From positions 1 through 33,971 of the IMG/VR virus record IMGVR_UViG_3300009788_000220: a DNA stretch of 33,971 bases; one strand, given 5' to 3'. Numbering within the stretch: the first letter of the stretch is position 1; every line of letters starts with the position of its first letter. This document shows, in pieces, positions 3,709 to 28,515 of this stretch. This DNA comes from a virus. The translations under genes were made by a program, and so were the position numbers. The notes below the pieces were generated by a model. It was given only the letters and a program-made list of their open reading frames with translations, made no database searches and was not told where the DNA came from.

Positions 3709-4002
3709 TTATTCGGTTTGCCTTTCGGAATTTTGTTCCTCCATTAGCTTCAGTACTTCTTGAGTGGTGCGTTCAGTTAGTTTGGTTTTTGTCATTTTCA
3801 CGATGCTACCAATTTCTGGGTGCAAGGCTTCCCACGCCCTGATTTTAGATACTGCCAGAACAAAGACTTCGTTGTGGTGGTTGTCGTCCCAATCGCCACT
3901 GTCTTCAAAAACGAACAATTCGCGTCCGTCGTCACACTCTCCACGTCGCAGCCAGTCGGCGAACGAGCCTACTACTTCGGCCGGCGGTTTCTTGGTTGTC
4001 AT
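3709..4002 (-). CDS. Hypothetical acidic protein
   Basis: A 97-aa protein, MTTKKPPAEVVGSFADWLRRG..., rich in D/E with a central block FVFEDSGDWDDNHHNEVFVLAVSKIR and a helical C-terminus. No recognised domain. It sits 12 nt after the methyltransferase gene in the same leftward series. Confidence 0.5.
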   Translation of the reverse strand: MTTKKPPAEVVGSFADWLRRGECDDGRELFVFEDSGDWDDNHHNEVFVLAVSKIRAWEALHPEIGSIVKMTKTKLTERTTQEVLKLMEEQNSERQTE

Positions 4003-8667: not shown

Positions 8668-9689
8668 TATTTATCCTCTTCGTCTTCATCTTCTTTTTTC
8701 GTGCGATAGAACGACGCGGTTCGCTTCGTAGTTTTCGGCTTGTCGAAACCATAGATGTCGCCGGCATCAGTCCGAATGTCACCGTTGACCTTCACATAGC
8801 TCTTCGCCAAATCTTCCATTTCCTTTAGCCGTTTCTTGACAACAATCATCCGCTTGACCCATAGCTTCGGATCGTAACTGCAATCTTTGACCTCGATATC
8901 CGCAGCCGGACAACGAATCGCATAATCACAGATACGACACTTCTCACGCACGGGCCACGTTGGAACGTCTTCAATAGGCGTCAGTCTGTTCTCAAACCAG
9001 TTCTGTATCGCCATCTGGATGCGAGTCCGTATTGGGCCAAGATCCGTTCGGCGAAACTCAACCGCCCAAGACACAAGGTTGTAACGAGTGTTCCACACAG
9101 AAATTCTGACAGCTTCGACTTCGGGATAGTTCATCAGCACAAGAAAAGCGTGTAGCTGGAACTGGAACGATTCACTCACTGCCTGTTCGTTGAATTTCTT
9201 CCTGCCCGTTTTCCAGTCGATCTCTGCCAGCAATGCCGGCGAATCTGTAGCATGCAGCAAATCCAACTCCGACGTGACGCGAACCTTCAACGATTCGAAG
9301 TCATATGAGAGTTGCCCCGACAACTCGCCCGCACCGCCGTCGAATCGAAGGATGTTTTGGAAGTGCAGTCCAGTTAAGAATTCGGAGAACTTATAGATAC
9401 TGTATCGGAAGCCATTGATCACTTCCGGCTGCAGGTCAGTCCGCGATTCCCATAGTTCTCTCTCGATCTCGTTACGCAAATCGTGTGGACTCAGCACGCC
9501 CTGCGACTCGATATAGGTTGTGATCGTACGGCTGATAGCCCGATGGATTTCTTCGCCGGACTCAGCGATCGCAGGCATTGAACATGAATGCGTTTCTGAG
9601 AGCCGAGCCTGTGCTGGGCACTCCGCGTACATCTGTAGGATCGAGCGGTCGAGCACGGTGTAATCGTCATCTAGGAAGTCAAATGTCAT
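8667..9689 (-). CDS. PD-(D/E)XK exonuclease, Cas4/AddB-like
   Basis: ATG 9689 overlaps the annealase stop (ATGA), giving 340 aa beginning MTFDFLDDDYTVLDRS. The catalytic core is LLAEIDWKTGRKKF at about residues 164-177, with E-x-D-x-K as the metal site, followed by the QFQLHAF motif-IV-like helix. A C-terminal cysteine group (CRICDYAIRCPA plus an early cysteine) resembles the iron-sulfur fastener of Cas4/AddB nucleases. Paired with an ERF annealase it would resect DNA ends for single-strand annealing recombination. The last residues are very acidic (KKEDEDEEDK). Confidence 0.82.
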   Translation of the reverse strand: MTFDFLDDDYTVLDRSILQMYAECPAQARLSETHSCSMPAIAESGEEIHRAISRTITTYIESQGVLSPHDLRNEIERELWESRTDLQPEVINGFRYSIYKFSEFLTGLHFQNILRFDGGAGELSGQLSYDFESLKVRVTSELDLLHATDSPALLAEIDWKTGRKKFNEQAVSESFQFQLHAFLVLMNYPEVEAVRISVWNTRYNLVSWAVEFRRTDLGPIRTRIQMAIQNWFENRLTPIEDVPTWPVREKCRICDYAIRCPAADIEVKDCSYDPKLWVKRMIVVKKRLKEMEDLAKSYVKVNGDIRTDAGDIYGFDKPKTTKRTASFYRTKKEDEDEEDK

Positions 9690-10501
9690 TTCGTGGGTTC
9701 CCCTCCCCGTTCGATAGCTGCCCGCTCGATACACTTCGCAAGCATCATCGTCGTCCAGGACGAAAGTTTGCGTAGTTTATCTTCATCAATTTCGAGGATC
9801 GCAGACGCCCAGGCTGCGAAAGCGTCAGAATCGGAGTTGTATGTGCCCCACTCATCCACCAGAGTTTTTAACTGCTCTTTCGTTACACGCTCGCCGCGCG
9901 GCTGCGTCTTCGGTGACGATGCATCGTGTATCGGGTTCTCATGCTGAGGCGGTTCACCCGCAGCCAGTCCGTCGTCGTCCGTCGTGTCGATGCCAAGAGC
10001 ACCAGTCAATGCGTAGCGACGAGCAAAAGAAATTGCGCTAGCAATTTTTTGGGTGTCGTTGACTCGCATTTTCGCATCGATACGAATCGGAAACTTTGAT
10101 GTCTCTTTCGCTCCGTCACGATGGCGAACCGTGCAGGTGACGTGCTTATCGTCGTCAGTGACACTGAAAGAAACAGACAACCCCAACTCATCCAGCAGCG
10201 GACGAATCGCAACTTTAATATCGGTTAGACTGGCAAACTTATATTTTGGGCCGCTTGGAATGTTCACATCATTCTGCTTCAAAACCGGCGGGCAACGGCT
10301 CTGAAACTCATTCAACGCCTGAACCAAGGCAGCTTCCGCCCGTCGTTCCTCGAACCGCTCATAAAGTGCCGCGAGCCGTTCAAAAGTATCGACATCGGCA
10401 CTTTGCTTAACGGCAAGTTCCAACAGTCGAGCTGGTTCAGACAGCACGATTGACACATCCTTGCTTTCAGCCGGCACAAGACTCTGTTGTTTTTCACTCA
10501 C
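9686..10501 (-). CDS. erf: ERF-family single-strand annealing protein
   Basis: A 271-aa protein matching the ERF family: an N-terminal helical part with FEERRAEAALVQALNEFQSRCPPVLK, then KYKFASLTDIKVAIRPLLDELGLSVSF, and later KIASAISFARRYALTGALGIDTTDDDG, which holds the family's R-R-Y-x-L-x-x-x-L-G-I block. ERF proteins form rings on single-stranded DNA and anneal complementary strands. The exonuclease that generates the substrate is coded immediately downstream with a 4-nt overlap. Confidence 0.88.
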   Translation of the reverse strand: MSEKQQSLVPAESKDVSIVLSEPARLLELAVKQSADVDTFERLAALYERFEERRAEAALVQALNEFQSRCPPVLKQNDVNIPSGPKYKFASLTDIKVAIRPLLDELGLSVSFSVTDDDKHVTCTVRHRDGAKETSKFPIRIDAKMRVNDTQKIASAISFARRYALTGALGIDTTDDDGLAAGEPPQHENPIHDASSPKTQPRGERVTKEQLKTLVDEWGTYNSDSDAFAAWASAILEIDEDKLRKLSSWTTMMLAKCIERAAIERGGEPTK

Positions 10502-12319: not shown

Positions 12320-12348
12320 AATATAACAAGAGTGTTATAACCTGTCAA
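12320..12348 (-). promoter_or_regulatory. Leftward sigma70-type promoter with operator
   Basis: On the minus strand TTGACA (12343-12348) and TATATT (12320-12325) are separated by exactly 17 nt. Within the spacer and the -10 is a perfect inverted repeat, TATAACA-N4-TGTTATA (12322-12339). A near copy of the same palindrome lies in front of the XRE gene, so this promoter is probably repressed by that protein. The -35 overlaps the XRE stop codon. Confidence 0.7.
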
Positions 12349-12596
12349 GCGGGTTTTTTCTTTTTTTTCTTGCGTGGACGAAACTGCTCAACGGGCACAG
12401 AGAGTACTTCTGCGAGATTGAAAAGTTGAGTTGCGTCAGGGCAATGGTGCCCATTTTCCATCCGATTGATCGTAGCAAACGCTACTCCAATTTTGTCGGC
12501 AAGCTCTGTTTGAGTCATGCCGAGATTGAGGCGTAATACTCTCATGGTGTCACCAAAGCACGCGATTAAATCTTCTCTTCGGATTACAGTTGACAT
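12345..12596 (-). CDS. XRE-family helix-turn-helix repressor
   Basis: An 83-aa protein with a single HTH_3 domain: LGMTQTELADKIGVAFATINRMENGHHCPD (about residues 25-54), in which TQTELADKIG and FATINRMENG form the two helices of the DNA-binding turn. The C-terminus is a lysine cluster (RKKKKKKPA). It lacks a cI-type peptidase or dimerisation domain. Its promoter places the transcription start at or next to ATG 12596, so the message is probably leaderless, as for lambda cI. Palindromes ATAACA-N4-TGTTAT at both of its flanking promoters are its likely operators. Confidence 0.85.
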   Translation of the reverse strand: MSTVIRREDLIACFGDTMRVLRLNLGMTQTELADKIGVAFATINRMENGHHCPDATQLFNLAEVLSVPVEQFRPRKKKKKKPA

Positions 12597-12618
12597 ATTA
12601 TTAGTATAACAGTATTGT
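12590..12618 (+). promoter_or_regulatory. Rightward promoter of the guide-RNA island
   Basis: TTGACA at 12590-12595 and TATTGT at 12613-12618 are separated by 17 nt. This is the only strong plus-strand promoter I see ahead of the island. Its -10 lies inside the palindrome at 12606-12621, so the XRE protein would be expected to repress it. The -35 overlaps the first codons of the divergent XRE gene. Confidence 0.65.
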
Positions 12619-12631
12619 TATTGCGTGTCAA
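12603..12631 (-). promoter_or_regulatory. Promoter of the XRE repressor
   Basis: On the minus strand TTGACA (12626-12631) and TATACT (12603-12608) are 17 nt apart, a consensus-like sigma70 promoter. The -10 ends 6 nt before the ATG at 12596, which predicts a leaderless mRNA. It overlaps the rightward promoter and shares its operator. Confidence 0.75.
12606..12621. promoter_or_regulatory. Shared operator between divergent promoters
   Basis: A perfect inverted repeat, ATAACA-GTAT-TGTTAT, is placed between the -35 and -10 of the repressor promoter and over the -10 of the rightward promoter. The same half-sites with a different 4-nt centre occur at 12322-12339. Binding by the XRE protein would tie expression of the guide island to the repressor circuit. 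Confidence 0.7.
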
Positions 12632-12646
12632 ACTAAGTGAGTCACC

Positions 12647-12717
12647 GGGACGTCCAGACAACAGGTCGATCGACGCCTTGTAACCGAAAGGAACCTTGGC
12701 CATGTCATGGGCGTCCC
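12647..12717 (+). ncRNA. Guide hairpin unit 1 (leader unit)
   Basis: The inner stem is GGTC (12664-12667) with GGCC (12698-12701). Inside are GA, spacer A TCGACGCCT, core TGTAACCGA (12679-12687), spacer B AAGGAACCT and T, exactly the layout of the main array. The stem extends outward through GACA/TGTC and CCA/TGG to GGGACG (12647-12652) with CGTCCC (12712-12717). It lies in the leader between the rightward promoter and the 185-aa gene and carries the TGT core variant. Confidence 0.8.
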
Positions 12718-13328: not shown

Positions 13329-13972
13329 GCGGATGGACGATTCGAGGTGTGAAACCGAAAGTGGCGCTGTCCAGCCGCTCATCGCAGCCGGGCGAGAAAG
13401 CCTGTGAAATCGAAAGGTCCGTTGCCCGGCTGTTTGAACAACGAAGCAGTTAGACGAGGGTGTGCGTGAAACCGATTCATAACCTGTCCATCTGCTTCAG
13501 CCGGGCGAGTCCTGTATTGAAACCGATTCAAGCTGTGTCTATCTGCTTCAACCGGGCGATATGATCGATGCAACCGAAAGGGAGAATGCCCGGCTGTTTG
13601 AACAACGAAGCAGTTAGACGATCTCCCGTGTGAAACCGAAAAGAAACCTGTCTAGCTGCTTCAGCCGGGCGATGTCGTGTTTGAAACCGATTGAGCCAAT
13701 GCCCGGCTTTTAGAACAACAGGCGAGGGAAACCATGAAACCGAGGGGCGATTTGCCTGTTTTATTACTGAGTTATCGGGCGAGTGCCTCGATGAAACCGA
13801 GAGACGTTGTGCCCGATTTTGTGACTGGCGACATCCGCTTTGAAACCGACTGAGGCTGTGCCAGTCTTTTACGAACGAAGGATCGAAAGATATTTTGTAA
13901 CCGACGAGGTTGATGATCCTTCTTAACCCGTGGGCGAAATTCAATCTGAAACCGAGACCCCATGTGCCTACG
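13329..13972 (+). repeat. Array of 12 dual-spacer guide hairpins (units 2-13), TIGR-like
   Basis: Each unit reads arm, GA, 9 nt (A), 9-nt core, 9 nt (B), T, arm. Cores start at 13350, 13405, 13467, 13518, 13569, 13631, 13682, 13735, 13792, 13841, 13896 and 13947 (pitch 49-62 nt). A/B pairs: 2 TTCGAGGTG/AAGTGGCGC; 3 GAAAGCCTG/AAGGTCCGT; 4 GGGTGTGCG/TTCATAACC; 5 GTCCTGTAT/TTCAAGCTG; 6 TATGATCGA/AAGGGAGAA; 7 TCTCCCGTG/AAAGAAACC; 8 TGTCGTGTT/TTGAGCCAA; 9 GGGAAACCA/GGGGCGATT; 10 GTGCCTCGA/GAGACGTTG; 11 CATCCGCTT/CTGAGGCTG; 12 AAGATATTT/CGAGGTTGA; 13 AATTCAATC/GACCCCATG. The core is TGAAACCGA except in 3 (TGAAATCGA), 6 (TGCAACCGA) and 12 (TGTAACCGA). Arms of 4-13 nt pair within each unit except unit 5. 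A and B do not pair with each other. Paired 9-nt spacers match what I recall of TIGR arrays; the long unit-specific stems differ from simple tandem repeats. Confidence 0.92.
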
Positions 13973-13988
13973 CTTTTAGGAGAAACCG

Positions 13989-15068
13989 ATGACCAAAACC
14001 GAGATTGCTGAGACCTGTACCGGACTGCAAGCACTGCAGCGACAGCGCGCGTGGTACATCAAGTCGCGTAACATGATGGGAAACCGCCTACAAGCGACCG
14101 TGGCGGGGATGCAAGGCTACAATAGCGGGCTGAAAGAGGCCGAGCGTAAGAAGCTGTTTCTTGAAGCCGGTAAGCACATCAAGAAAGTCGGCAGAGGTGA
14201 GGCGGAACAGAACCCACTGATACTGACTGGCTTGATAGCAATCAAAGCCTTCGAAGATGAAAAGAAATCTACCGAGAAAGAAATGCTCAAGCTGGTAAAG
14301 CAACTGCCTGTCGCGTCATGGGTCGAGAAGCCGGAACAACGCGGATTCGGTCTGTTGTTCCTTGCAATCGTCGTTGGCGAAACGGGTGACTTATCAAACT
14401 ATTCCAACCCCGGCAAACTCTGGCGTCGGCTTGGCTGTGCTCCCTTTACCAAAGGCGGCGAGACGCTGATGGGTGCAACTTGGCGGGGACGCGGTAACGG
14501 AAAACGCGGTGAGAAACTGCACGCTTCGGATTGGGAAGCGTTCGGCTATTCGCCACGGCGGCGGTCGATTGCGTTTCTGATTGGTGAGAATATTGTTAAG
14601 CAAAATTGGATTGTGGCGGACGGCGAGGACGAGCGTGAAACCGAGGATTATTCTGCCGTTCCGCTGCAATCCGATTGTATTGATGAGTCCGGCGACAGAG
14701 GCTTTGAAACCGATGCCCCCGGTGCCGACTCATCTGACGAACTCGATACGCCCGGCGAGCTGGGCGGTGAAACCGAGAAACGTATTGCCGGGCCGTATCG
14801 AGAACGTTACGATGAAGCAAAAAAACGAGCCGCCAAGATACACCCTGAATGGATCCGCTGCGACAAGTGCGACGGGACCGGCAAGCTCGAAGCTAAGAAG
14901 TGTGGCAATTGCAAAGGCACGGGTGAACTTTTAATGCACTGCCATCGGCACGGCATGCTGCTAGCGACGAAGCGTCTGTTAAAGAAGCTGTGGCAGGAGT
15001 GGAATCAGTCGTTCGGCGAGGGTCTGTGTGAAACCGAAGAGGCAATTGCCGAACTTGTGGAAGTTTGA
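13989..15068 (+). CDS. Tas-like (Nop5/IS110 C-terminal-like) protein of the guide system
   Basis: A 359-aa protein, ATG 13989, with AGGAG 6 nt upstream. Residues 1-105 are helical and coiled-coil-like. Residues 118-150 (RGFGLLFLAIVVGETGDLSNYSNPGKLWRRLG) resemble the helix-hairpin-helix of the IS110 Tnp_20 domain, and RRRSIAFLIGENIVKQN follows. After a linker (about 207-268) come YDEAKKRAAKIHPEW and HCHRHGMLLATKRLLKKLWQEW (317-338), as at the end of IS110-type proteins. A zinc ribbon with two CxxCxGxG motifs (Cys 291, 294, 305, 308) is inserted before it. There is no N-terminal DEDD domain and no clear HNH or RuvC motif, so it would match a nuclease-free Tas type that binds guide RNA. The linker and C-terminus are encoded by four guide units. 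A degenerate transposase is the alternative. Confidence 0.75.
   Translation: MTKTEIAETCTGLQALQRQRAWYIKSRNMMGNRLQATVAGMQGYNSGLKEAERKKLFLEAGKHIKKVGRGEAEQNPLILTGLIAIKAFEDEKKSTEKEMLKLVKQLPVASWVEKPEQRGFGLLFLAIVVGETGDLSNYSNPGKLWRRLGCAPFTKGGETLMGATWRGRGNGKRGEKLHASDWEAFGYSPRRRSIAFLIGENIVKQNWIVADGEDERETEDYSAVPLQSDCIDESGDRGFETDAPGADSSDELDTPGELGGETEKRIAGPYRERYDEAKKRAAKIHPEWIRCDKCDGTGKLEAKKCGNCKGTGELLMHCHRHGMLLATKRLLKKLWQEWNQSFGEGLCETEEAIAELVEV
14616..15054 (+). repeat. Four guide hairpins inside the Tas-like coding sequence (units 14-17)
   Basis: Units with the same exact spacing lie in the reading frame. Cores start at 14636, 14705, 14768 and 15029, all TGAAACCGA. A/B pairs: 14 GGACGAGCG/GGATTATTC; 15 CAGAGGCTT/TGCCCCCGG; 16 GCTGGGCGG/GAAACGTAT; 17 GGGTCTGTG/AGAGGCAAT. 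Arms: 14616-14624 with 14655-14664; 14682-14693 with 14724-14734; 14742-14756 with 14787-14802; 15011-15017 with 15048-15054. All four are read in the same frame, giving the peptide pattern G-[D/E]-x3-E-T-[D/E]-x3-A (GEDERETEDYSA, GDRGFETDAPGA, GELGGETEKRIA, GEGLCETEEAIA). The core is read as xxT-GAA-ACC-GAx, which avoids its out-of-frame TGA. Confidence 0.9.
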
Positions 15069-15291
15069 CCCATCGAAGGTCGAGTTGTAACCGAGGGTGA
15101 TGTTGATGGGTCTTAATACGAATCGGCGAAGTTGAACATGAAACCGAAGGGGAATTTGCCGATTGAAACGGAACCAGCAGGGCGGCGACAGAGGCGATGA
15201 AACCGAGGCTATTATTGCCGATCTTGCTGGTTCCGCAGAATGCAACGGCTCGGCGATGTCAAAAATGAAACCGAGCACGTCTTTGCCGAGC
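15068..15291 (+). repeat. Four guide hairpins after the Tas-like gene (units 18-21)
   Basis: Cores start at 15086 (TGTAACCGA), 15139, 15198 and 15266 (TGAAACCGA). A/B pairs: 18 AGGTCGAGT/GGGTGATGT; 19 AGTTGAACA/AGGGGAATT; 20 CAGAGGCGA/GGCTATTAT; 21 TGTCAAAAA/GCACGTCTT. Unit 18 begins at the stop codon of the Tas-like gene (5' arm 15068-15074, 3' arm 15105-15111). Unit 20 has the longest arms (15170-15186 with 15217-15234). Unit 21 ends GCCGAGC followed by TTTTT at 15292, so it may also end the transcript. Confidence 0.9.
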
Positions 15292-15390
15292 TTTTTGAGA
15301 CGCGGGGCGGCTGGAATGCGAATGCTTTTAACCAAATCTAATTCGCCAATATTTCAGTCGCTCCGTTCTTTTCAGCCATGAGACAATCTA

Positions 15391-28290: not shown

Positions 28291-28380
28291 TTCTGCGTAC
28301 TTTGTAAACTTACTTATGTTTTACTGTCTGTTTGTGTGTCCTGCCGGATCACACGCAAACATCAAGAATAATCTCAAAAA

Positions 28381-28477
28381 CAACCAGCACACGCAAGGTC
28401 GGTTTCAGCCTCTTCATCGCCGGTTGTTTCAAAAGTTGGGCAACCGGGACCTCGTCTTCATGTAAGCCGTCGCCCAA
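28381..28477 (-). ncRNA. Two solitary guide hairpins on the minus strand (units 22 and 23)
   Basis: Unit 23 is transcribed first. Its arms TTGGGC/GCCCAA are at 28472-28477 and 28436-28441, spacer A is CGGCTTACA, the core TGAAGACGA (28452-28460) is a variant, and spacer B is GGTCCCGGT. Unit 22 has arms CAACCGGC/GCTGGTTG (28419-28426 and 28381-28388), spacer A TGAAGAGGC, core TGAAACCGA (28399-28407) and spacer B CCTTGCGTG. Both keep the exact GA-9-9-9-T layout of the plus-strand island 13 kb away. They lie in the 293-nt non-coding gap before the capsid gene. Confidence 0.88.
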
Positions 28478-28515
28478 TGTCTCAACGTTACAAGTATCTC
28501 AAAACAGATGCAAGG

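Follow-up and report, generated by a model that had tools for sequence, protein, structure and literature searches.

Spacer change within copied scaffold blocks of a stem-loop TIGR guide array in a phage TIGR-TasA locus

A three-unit block of scaffold is present twice in a phage array of short repeat units, with arms, boxes, loops and linkers largely preserved and the enclosed spacers largely different. The repeats are a TIGR guide-RNA array belonging to a TIGR-Tas locus, carried on IMG/VR record IMGVR_UViG_3300009788_000220 (viral DNA, positions 1 to 33,971; this whole stretch of 33,971 nt is hereafter the window). Together with three further phage contigs, we describe four independent block duplications, in all of which spacer identity is at the level of random pairs. 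We consider it probable that the whole pattern reflects a phage TIGR-TasA locus in which blocks of units are duplicated and later change is confined to the spacers.

Layout of the TIGR-TasA locus

The window holds 23 stem-loop guide units, each with 9+9 nt of spacer, that follow the formula [arm]CGA-N9-TGAAACCGA-N9-TG[arm] with self-complementary arms; the repeat units from which the original prediction started are a part of this full set. One unit precedes the gene P0002, 12 lie between P0002 and tasA, four within tasA and four behind it, and the remaining two, at 28.4 kb, are encoded on the minus strand. When the window's own 23 units were used to build a covariance model, cmsearch recovered exactly these 23 in the window, and none weaker up to E = 1. 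The stems covary: 90.6% of stem cells were paired versus 60.6% in shuffled sets (score 0.85 vs 0.27; reached by 0/500 shuffles), and 49 cells were altered on both sides. In an arm-swap test, own arms paired at 5.0/6 versus 2.64 for arms swapped between units (p 2e-4). An Rfam scan gave nothing reaching the gathering score and a tRNA/tmRNA search found none. Elsewhere in the window, a 36-nt exact direct repeat (197-232 and 667-702), the longest in the window, is unrelated to the array, and 2856-2950, within a minus-strand ORF, holds short tandem repeats of two kinds, the hexamer TAGGGA and a 24-nt repeat with its copies 33 nt apart.

On the plus strand the array opens with an isolated leader unit with a TGTAACCGA loop (unit 1, 12659-12706; 33.6 bits), followed beyond P0002 by unit 2 (13330-13377; 39.9 bits). 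Units 3 to 5 form copy 1 of the duplicated block: unit 3 (13385-13432; 45.4 bits; spacers GAAAGCCTG / AAGGTCCGT), unit 4 (13447-13494; 37.9 bits; GGGTGTGCG / TTCATAACC) and unit 5 (13498-13545; 33.7 bits; GTCCTGTAT / TTCAAGCTG). Copy 2 comprises unit 6 (13549-13596; 41.7 bits; TATGATCGA / AAGGGAGAA), unit 7 (13611-13658; 40.4 bits; TCTCCCGTG / AAAGAAACC) and unit 8 (13662-13709; 50.7 bits; TGTCGTGTT / TTGAGCCAA). Five more units lead up to tasA, namely 9 (13715-13762; 48 bits), 10 (13772-13819; 46.3 bits), 11 (13821-13868; 44.8 bits), 12, again with a TGTAACCGA loop (13876-13923; 36.6 bits), and 13 (13927-13974; 40.9 bits), and four follow the units embedded in tasA: 18 (15066-15113; 40.1 bits), 19 (15119-15166; 45.8 bits), 20 (15178-15225; 44.4 bits) and 21 (15246-15293; 47.5 bits). 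Main-array units are spaced about 49-69 nt apart and are separated by their individual stems and linkers. One unit in the set that was sorted into scaffold and spacer categories carries TGATACCGA. According to the gene calls, the two satellite units lie between the genes for the head maturation protease and the major head protein (unit 22, 28433-28480, minus strand; 35.2 bits) and upstream of the major head protein gene (unit 23, 28380-28427, minus strand; 35.7 bits); at 28380-28480 they share the strand of the head genes, 13 kb from tas.

The gene at 13989-15068 (plus strand; 359 aa) encodes a Tas protein that is a Nop domain alone, and we class it as TasA because it has no nuclease domain: a Pfam scan found no HNH or RuvC family, and the AlphaFold model (pLDDT 84) opens directly with a long helix. 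The Tas family profile (A4) matched the solved structures 9mty of TasR (E 2e-12) and 21kl of TasH (E 1e-4), 9MTY being the code of the TasR structure in the main text of Faure et al., 2025 (PMC12045711). The best folds for the TasA model were TasH chains (prob 1.00, E 2e-3), then IS110 recombinases, and Pfam Transposase_20 matched 7/20 Tas family members.

Four units lie within tasA (14616-15056), as judged by score and reading frame. Three are in frame between the Nop core and a conserved C-terminal helix, unit 14 (14616-14663; 41.7 bits; GEDERETEDYSA), unit 15 (14685-14732; 36.5 bits; GDRGFETDAPGA) and unit 16 (14748-14795; 44.9 bits; GELGGETEKRIA), and unit 17 (15009-15056; 49.1 bits; GEGLCETEEAIA) is at the C-terminal end. 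The insert that units encode between core and helix is predicted to be disordered (223-259) and should be translated, since the C-terminal helix lies beyond it. It is absent from L019, L023, L025 and L031; L017, L018 and L006 have embedded units at the same tas site and in the same frame, reading G-D/E-xxx-ET-xxxx-A. Units placed within the effector gene suggest that array processing would cut or mask the tas mRNA: excision of the embedded RNAs would destroy the message, a possible built-in feedback.

Upstream of tasA lies P0002 (12759-13316, plus strand; 185 aa), a conserved partner gene: in 16 clade loci, counting the window, a homologue immediately precedes tasA, and weaker matches occur in L048, L051 and L054. 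The partner alignment (A3) was too weakly conserved for use as a scan profile. P0002 had no match in Pfam, PHROG or the PDB, and its predicted fold had no meaningful PDB match; with neither a Pfam ParB match nor a ParB fold match, it is not the co-operonic ParB partner of a TasParB system. A two-sequence search matched a homologue in Rhizobium phage RHph_X2_25 (E 3e-13); this phage is in culture, which makes a bench test possible. In this phage (L065, MW960032.1, 2546-4612) the partner and Tas homologues lie beside a divergent repressor C gene, and inspection by eye shows hairpin-like units around tas that have different boxes. A linked repressor gene is thus seen in both RHph_X2_25 and the window, where an HTH_3 gene (12345-12631, minus strand) points away from the TIGR operon and the promoter-like sites of the two overlap in opposite orientation, an arrangement that resembles a repressor control region. 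The site at the TIGR operon start (TTGACA-17-TATTGT, 12590-12618, plus strand) and the divergent one for the HTH gene (12631-12603, minus strand) have 10 and 11 of 12 consensus matches and are weak evidence, the consensus scan having found 3 sites versus 1.9 expected by chance.

Targets for the guides were sought in 0.53 Mb of the window phage's own and related phage sequence. A self-target search without array masking was confounded by the arrays. With arrays masked, and allowing both spacer orders and gaps of 0-2, near-matches in own and related contigs were not above those of shuffled spacers.

Duplicated blocks and their spacers

Copy 1 of the block spans 13387-13540 and copy 2 13551-13704 (plus strand), and the two are identical at 93/100 scaffold positions versus 18/54 spacer positions. 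When 13387-13540 was compared with the sequence 164 nt downstream, arms and linkers agreed at 53/58, boxes at 15/15 and loops at 25/27 positions, and spacers at 6/27 (A) and 12/27 (B). The original prediction had reported a 34-nt identity between 13424-13457 and 13588-13621, which we recover as an exact repeat of 35 nt (13423-13457 and 13587-13621, offset 164); when the whole window was shuffled 20 times by mononucleotide, the longest exact repeats measured 13-16 nt. It was likewise correct that the core after this repeat is identical, the loop TGAAACCGA being the same in both copies, and that the following segment differs at two positions (TGTCCATCTGCTTCAGCCGGGCGA at 13485 versus TGTCTAGCTGCTTCAGCCGGGCGA at 13649). 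That all enclosed spacers are unrelated is mostly accurate and slightly too strong, as the B spacers of units 3 and 6 have AAGG in common and those of units 4 and 7 a terminal AACC. Spacer positions A9 and B2 agree in 6/8 pairs, which by our own estimate is not significant after correction. The 12/27 B-spacer identities in the window and the A9/B2 matches hint at some constraint or a remnant of common ancestry. Unit 5 (13506) combines two types, with a left flank like units 6 and 8 (18/20) and a right flank like units 4 and 7 (18/20), and its arms barely pair (score 8.0).

A unit pattern search followed by a Tas alignment (A1) yielded a single clade of about 16 IMG/VR contigs, and most of these carry the same kind of unit. 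In related loci the covariance model found 103 units, all on the tas strand and all within the window's Tas clade; none were found in the distant Tas loci searched. Regular dual-repeat-like arrays of 45 and 47 nt take the place of stem-loop units in L020 and L062/L026, and both array types thus occur within one Tas clade. The sole near-identical pair of stem-loop arrays, L003/L004, is 100% identical over 3333 bases. Neither the exact scaffold pattern nor wider unit-pair patterns, which mostly recovered contigs already in the set, revealed a close relative of the window phage. A plain protein scan of viral contigs with P0001 gave no match, and in the collections searched no orthologous arrays were found that differ in spacers on a common scaffold. 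L059/L060 (92.5% alike) were considered as an ortholog pair and rejected; they appear to be IS110-type elements that lack an array.

Paralogous blocks within loci therefore stood in for orthologous arrays of close relatives. Four independent duplications were found, in the window (3 units, +164), L018 (2 units, +150), L003 (2 units, +108) and L019 (+114, where a second unit was also seen and only the first enters the counts); all four loci are metagenomic assemblies. Pooled, the scaffold is identical at 298/318 positions and the spacers at 44/144 (A 19/72, B 25/72), the latter approximately the level between unrelated units (Fisher p 1e-33 for arms and linkers versus spacers). JC distances were 0.05-0.15 substitutions per site for arms and linkers versus at least 1.27 for spacers, a spacer-to-scaffold rate ratio of at least about 8-fold and centrally about 20-fold. 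Across 991 within-locus unit pairs in an extended unit set, spacer identity was flat at about 2.4/9 at any flank identity, and 0 pairs had duplicated guides. In L018 the block begins with the last codons of tas (GATTGAATGGTGG), an exact copy of which lies downstream, with no evident function there; copying is the simplest account of it, over convergence or long constraint. In L019 a 10-nt spacer stands opposite a 9-nt one in otherwise copied scaffold. In L020, comparison of 2475-2520 with 3888-3933 shows two consecutive units whose spacers agree in part (11/18, 12/18); this may be an older duplication in which the guides are half changed.

Together, these results support the predicted faster change of spacers than of scaffold in the window and in three more phage contigs. 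Of the prediction's two options, spacers "exchanged or mutated", the spacer-length difference in L019 favors exchange, and the partly common B-spacer ends in the window would fit stepwise change.

How the spacers may have changed

In the account we favor, the transcribed units would fold into stem-loops, each with two 9-nt spacers between a box-C-like CGA and a box-D-like TG. By analogy with the solved TasR and TasH structures, TasA would bind the units and be guided to DNA, with each spacer pairing with one target strand; to judge from the main text of Faure et al., 2025 (PMC12045711), the most likely effect of a TasA lacking a nuclease would be to bend its target or to stop it from being transcribed or replicated. 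The array would grow by the copying of blocks of two or three neighboring units, and because such units recur in order, duplication probably came first and spacer change second. After copying, almost only the spacers would change, faster than by background mutation, through a spacer-confined process of replacement or diversification, combined with selection for new guides. Candidate agents of replacement are recombination between arrays by an ERF-type annealing protein, an ERF-family gene being present at 9686-10498, and the conserved partner P0002. The mosaic structure of unit 5 suggests that recombination takes place inside the cores of units. Because arms and some linkers have a function or recur (TTTTGAACAAC-like), their conservation may in part reflect selection and not a young age.

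In a more ordinary alternative, the duplications are old and no special process exists: point mutation accumulated under purifying selection on the stems, boxes and processing sites of the scaffold, and the spacers were free or diversifying toward new targets. Stems and boxes are clearly constrained, window linkers recur in sequence, and the partly common B-spacer ends in the window would fit gradual, stepwise change. We nevertheless judge this alternative unlikely. Arms vary widely within one array, so that identity in both arms and linkers speaks for recent copying; L018 retains an intact piece of the tas 3' end though that piece has no evident function; arms and linkers have diverged little against spacers that are saturated; and the spacer-length difference in L019 favors replacement over point mutation. 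Somewhat more plausible, though still on the doubtful side, is unequal recombination between lineages that have a scaffold in common but differ in spacers, bringing both versions next to each other; the pattern would then be reassortment and not turnover after duplication. Unit 5, with a left arm of one type and a right arm of the other, and the phage-encoded ERF annealing recombinase agree with it. This explanation moves the question, however, since lineages sharing a scaffold and differing in spacers must already exist, and such variants were not found in the collections searched.

An assembler could also have joined strain variants into a chimera, since each of the four cases comes from a metagenomic contig and involves repeats of 20-35 nt. 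The exact stretches common to both blocks are short relative to current assembly k-mers, which argues against such joining, as do the occurrence in four different contigs and the differing offsets (164, 150, 108 and 114 nt); a chimera would in any case require that variants with other spacers on the common scaffold exist, and we regard it as quite improbable. A diversity-generating retroelement, or other mutagenesis by reverse transcriptase, comes to mind since short variable inserts in an otherwise constant scaffold are reminiscent of the variable region of a DGR. It is very hard to credit here: the scanned larger ORFs of the window include no reverse transcriptase (small ORFs were covered in part), differences between copies are not adenine-specific, and no invariant template repeat is apparent.

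Returning to duplication followed by spacer-confined change, a stronger form of it is that TIGR arrays have their own guide renewal, in which scaffold is copied and the two 9-nt spacers between the boxes are then precisely swapped for others, with P0002 as a possible component. We hold this only tentatively, as a minority possibility. If true, such a route would be an adaptation mechanism unlike the Cas1-Cas2 mechanism of CRISPR. The paralogous blocks in four phages provide direct sequence evidence on guide turnover and named loci in which to measure it, and spacer change in a kept scaffold bears on the stated open question of how TIGR arrays gain new guides.

Relation to known systems

TIGR systems are recently described relatives of CRISPR and snoRNA systems. 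CRISPR arrays resemble the present one in combining a constant scaffold with ever-new short guides; here, unlike in CRISPR, guides are split 9+9 and multi-unit blocks are probably copied before the spacers change. The window proteins scanned include no Cas1/Cas2-like adaptation genes, and the locus does not belong to CRISPR-Cas. Box C/D snoRNPs likewise pair a Nop domain with C/D-like boxes, as set out in the main text of Faure et al., 2025 (PMC12045711), but the characterized Tas proteins target DNA; a fibrillarin or L7Ae-type partner was not seen. IS110/IS621 bridge-RNA recombinases have a related Nop-like RNA-binding domain and gave the next-best folds after TasH. They differ in that the clade studied here is without the N-terminal DEDD recombinase domain and has a guide array, not a bridge RNA; neither the TasA model nor Pfam revealed an N-terminal DEDD/RuvC-like catalytic domain, which places TasA outside IS110.

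Among TIGR systems, the dual-repeat arrays FpTIGR, TaTIGR and SpTIGR share with this one two 9-nt spacers, a 36-nt core unit, and a loop that starts with TG and ends in a C-box-like triplet; unlike theirs, the main-array units here are set apart by individual stems and linkers. The array belongs to the "stem-loop" TIGR subtype, in which palindromic variable arms replace the edge repeats. Stem-loop arrays have been described, from a Peromyscus gut contig, in the main text of Faure et al., 2025 (PMC12045711), and with that stem-loop TIGR-TasA the window shares a Tas protein that consists of the Nop domain alone, paired short spacers flanked by box C/D-like motifs, palindromic arms that vary between units, a phage setting and units flanking tas on both sides; its loop has a constant length, as in the "intermediate" type of the same paper. 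Unlike that system, the window has in-frame units within tas, satellite units in the head operon, a conserved P0002 that is not ParB-like, and paralogous blocks with replaced spacers, four features absent from the main-text parts of PMC12045711 that were compared. The element itself is a variant of a known TIGR kind, and the turnover of guides within a preserved scaffold is what makes it interesting.
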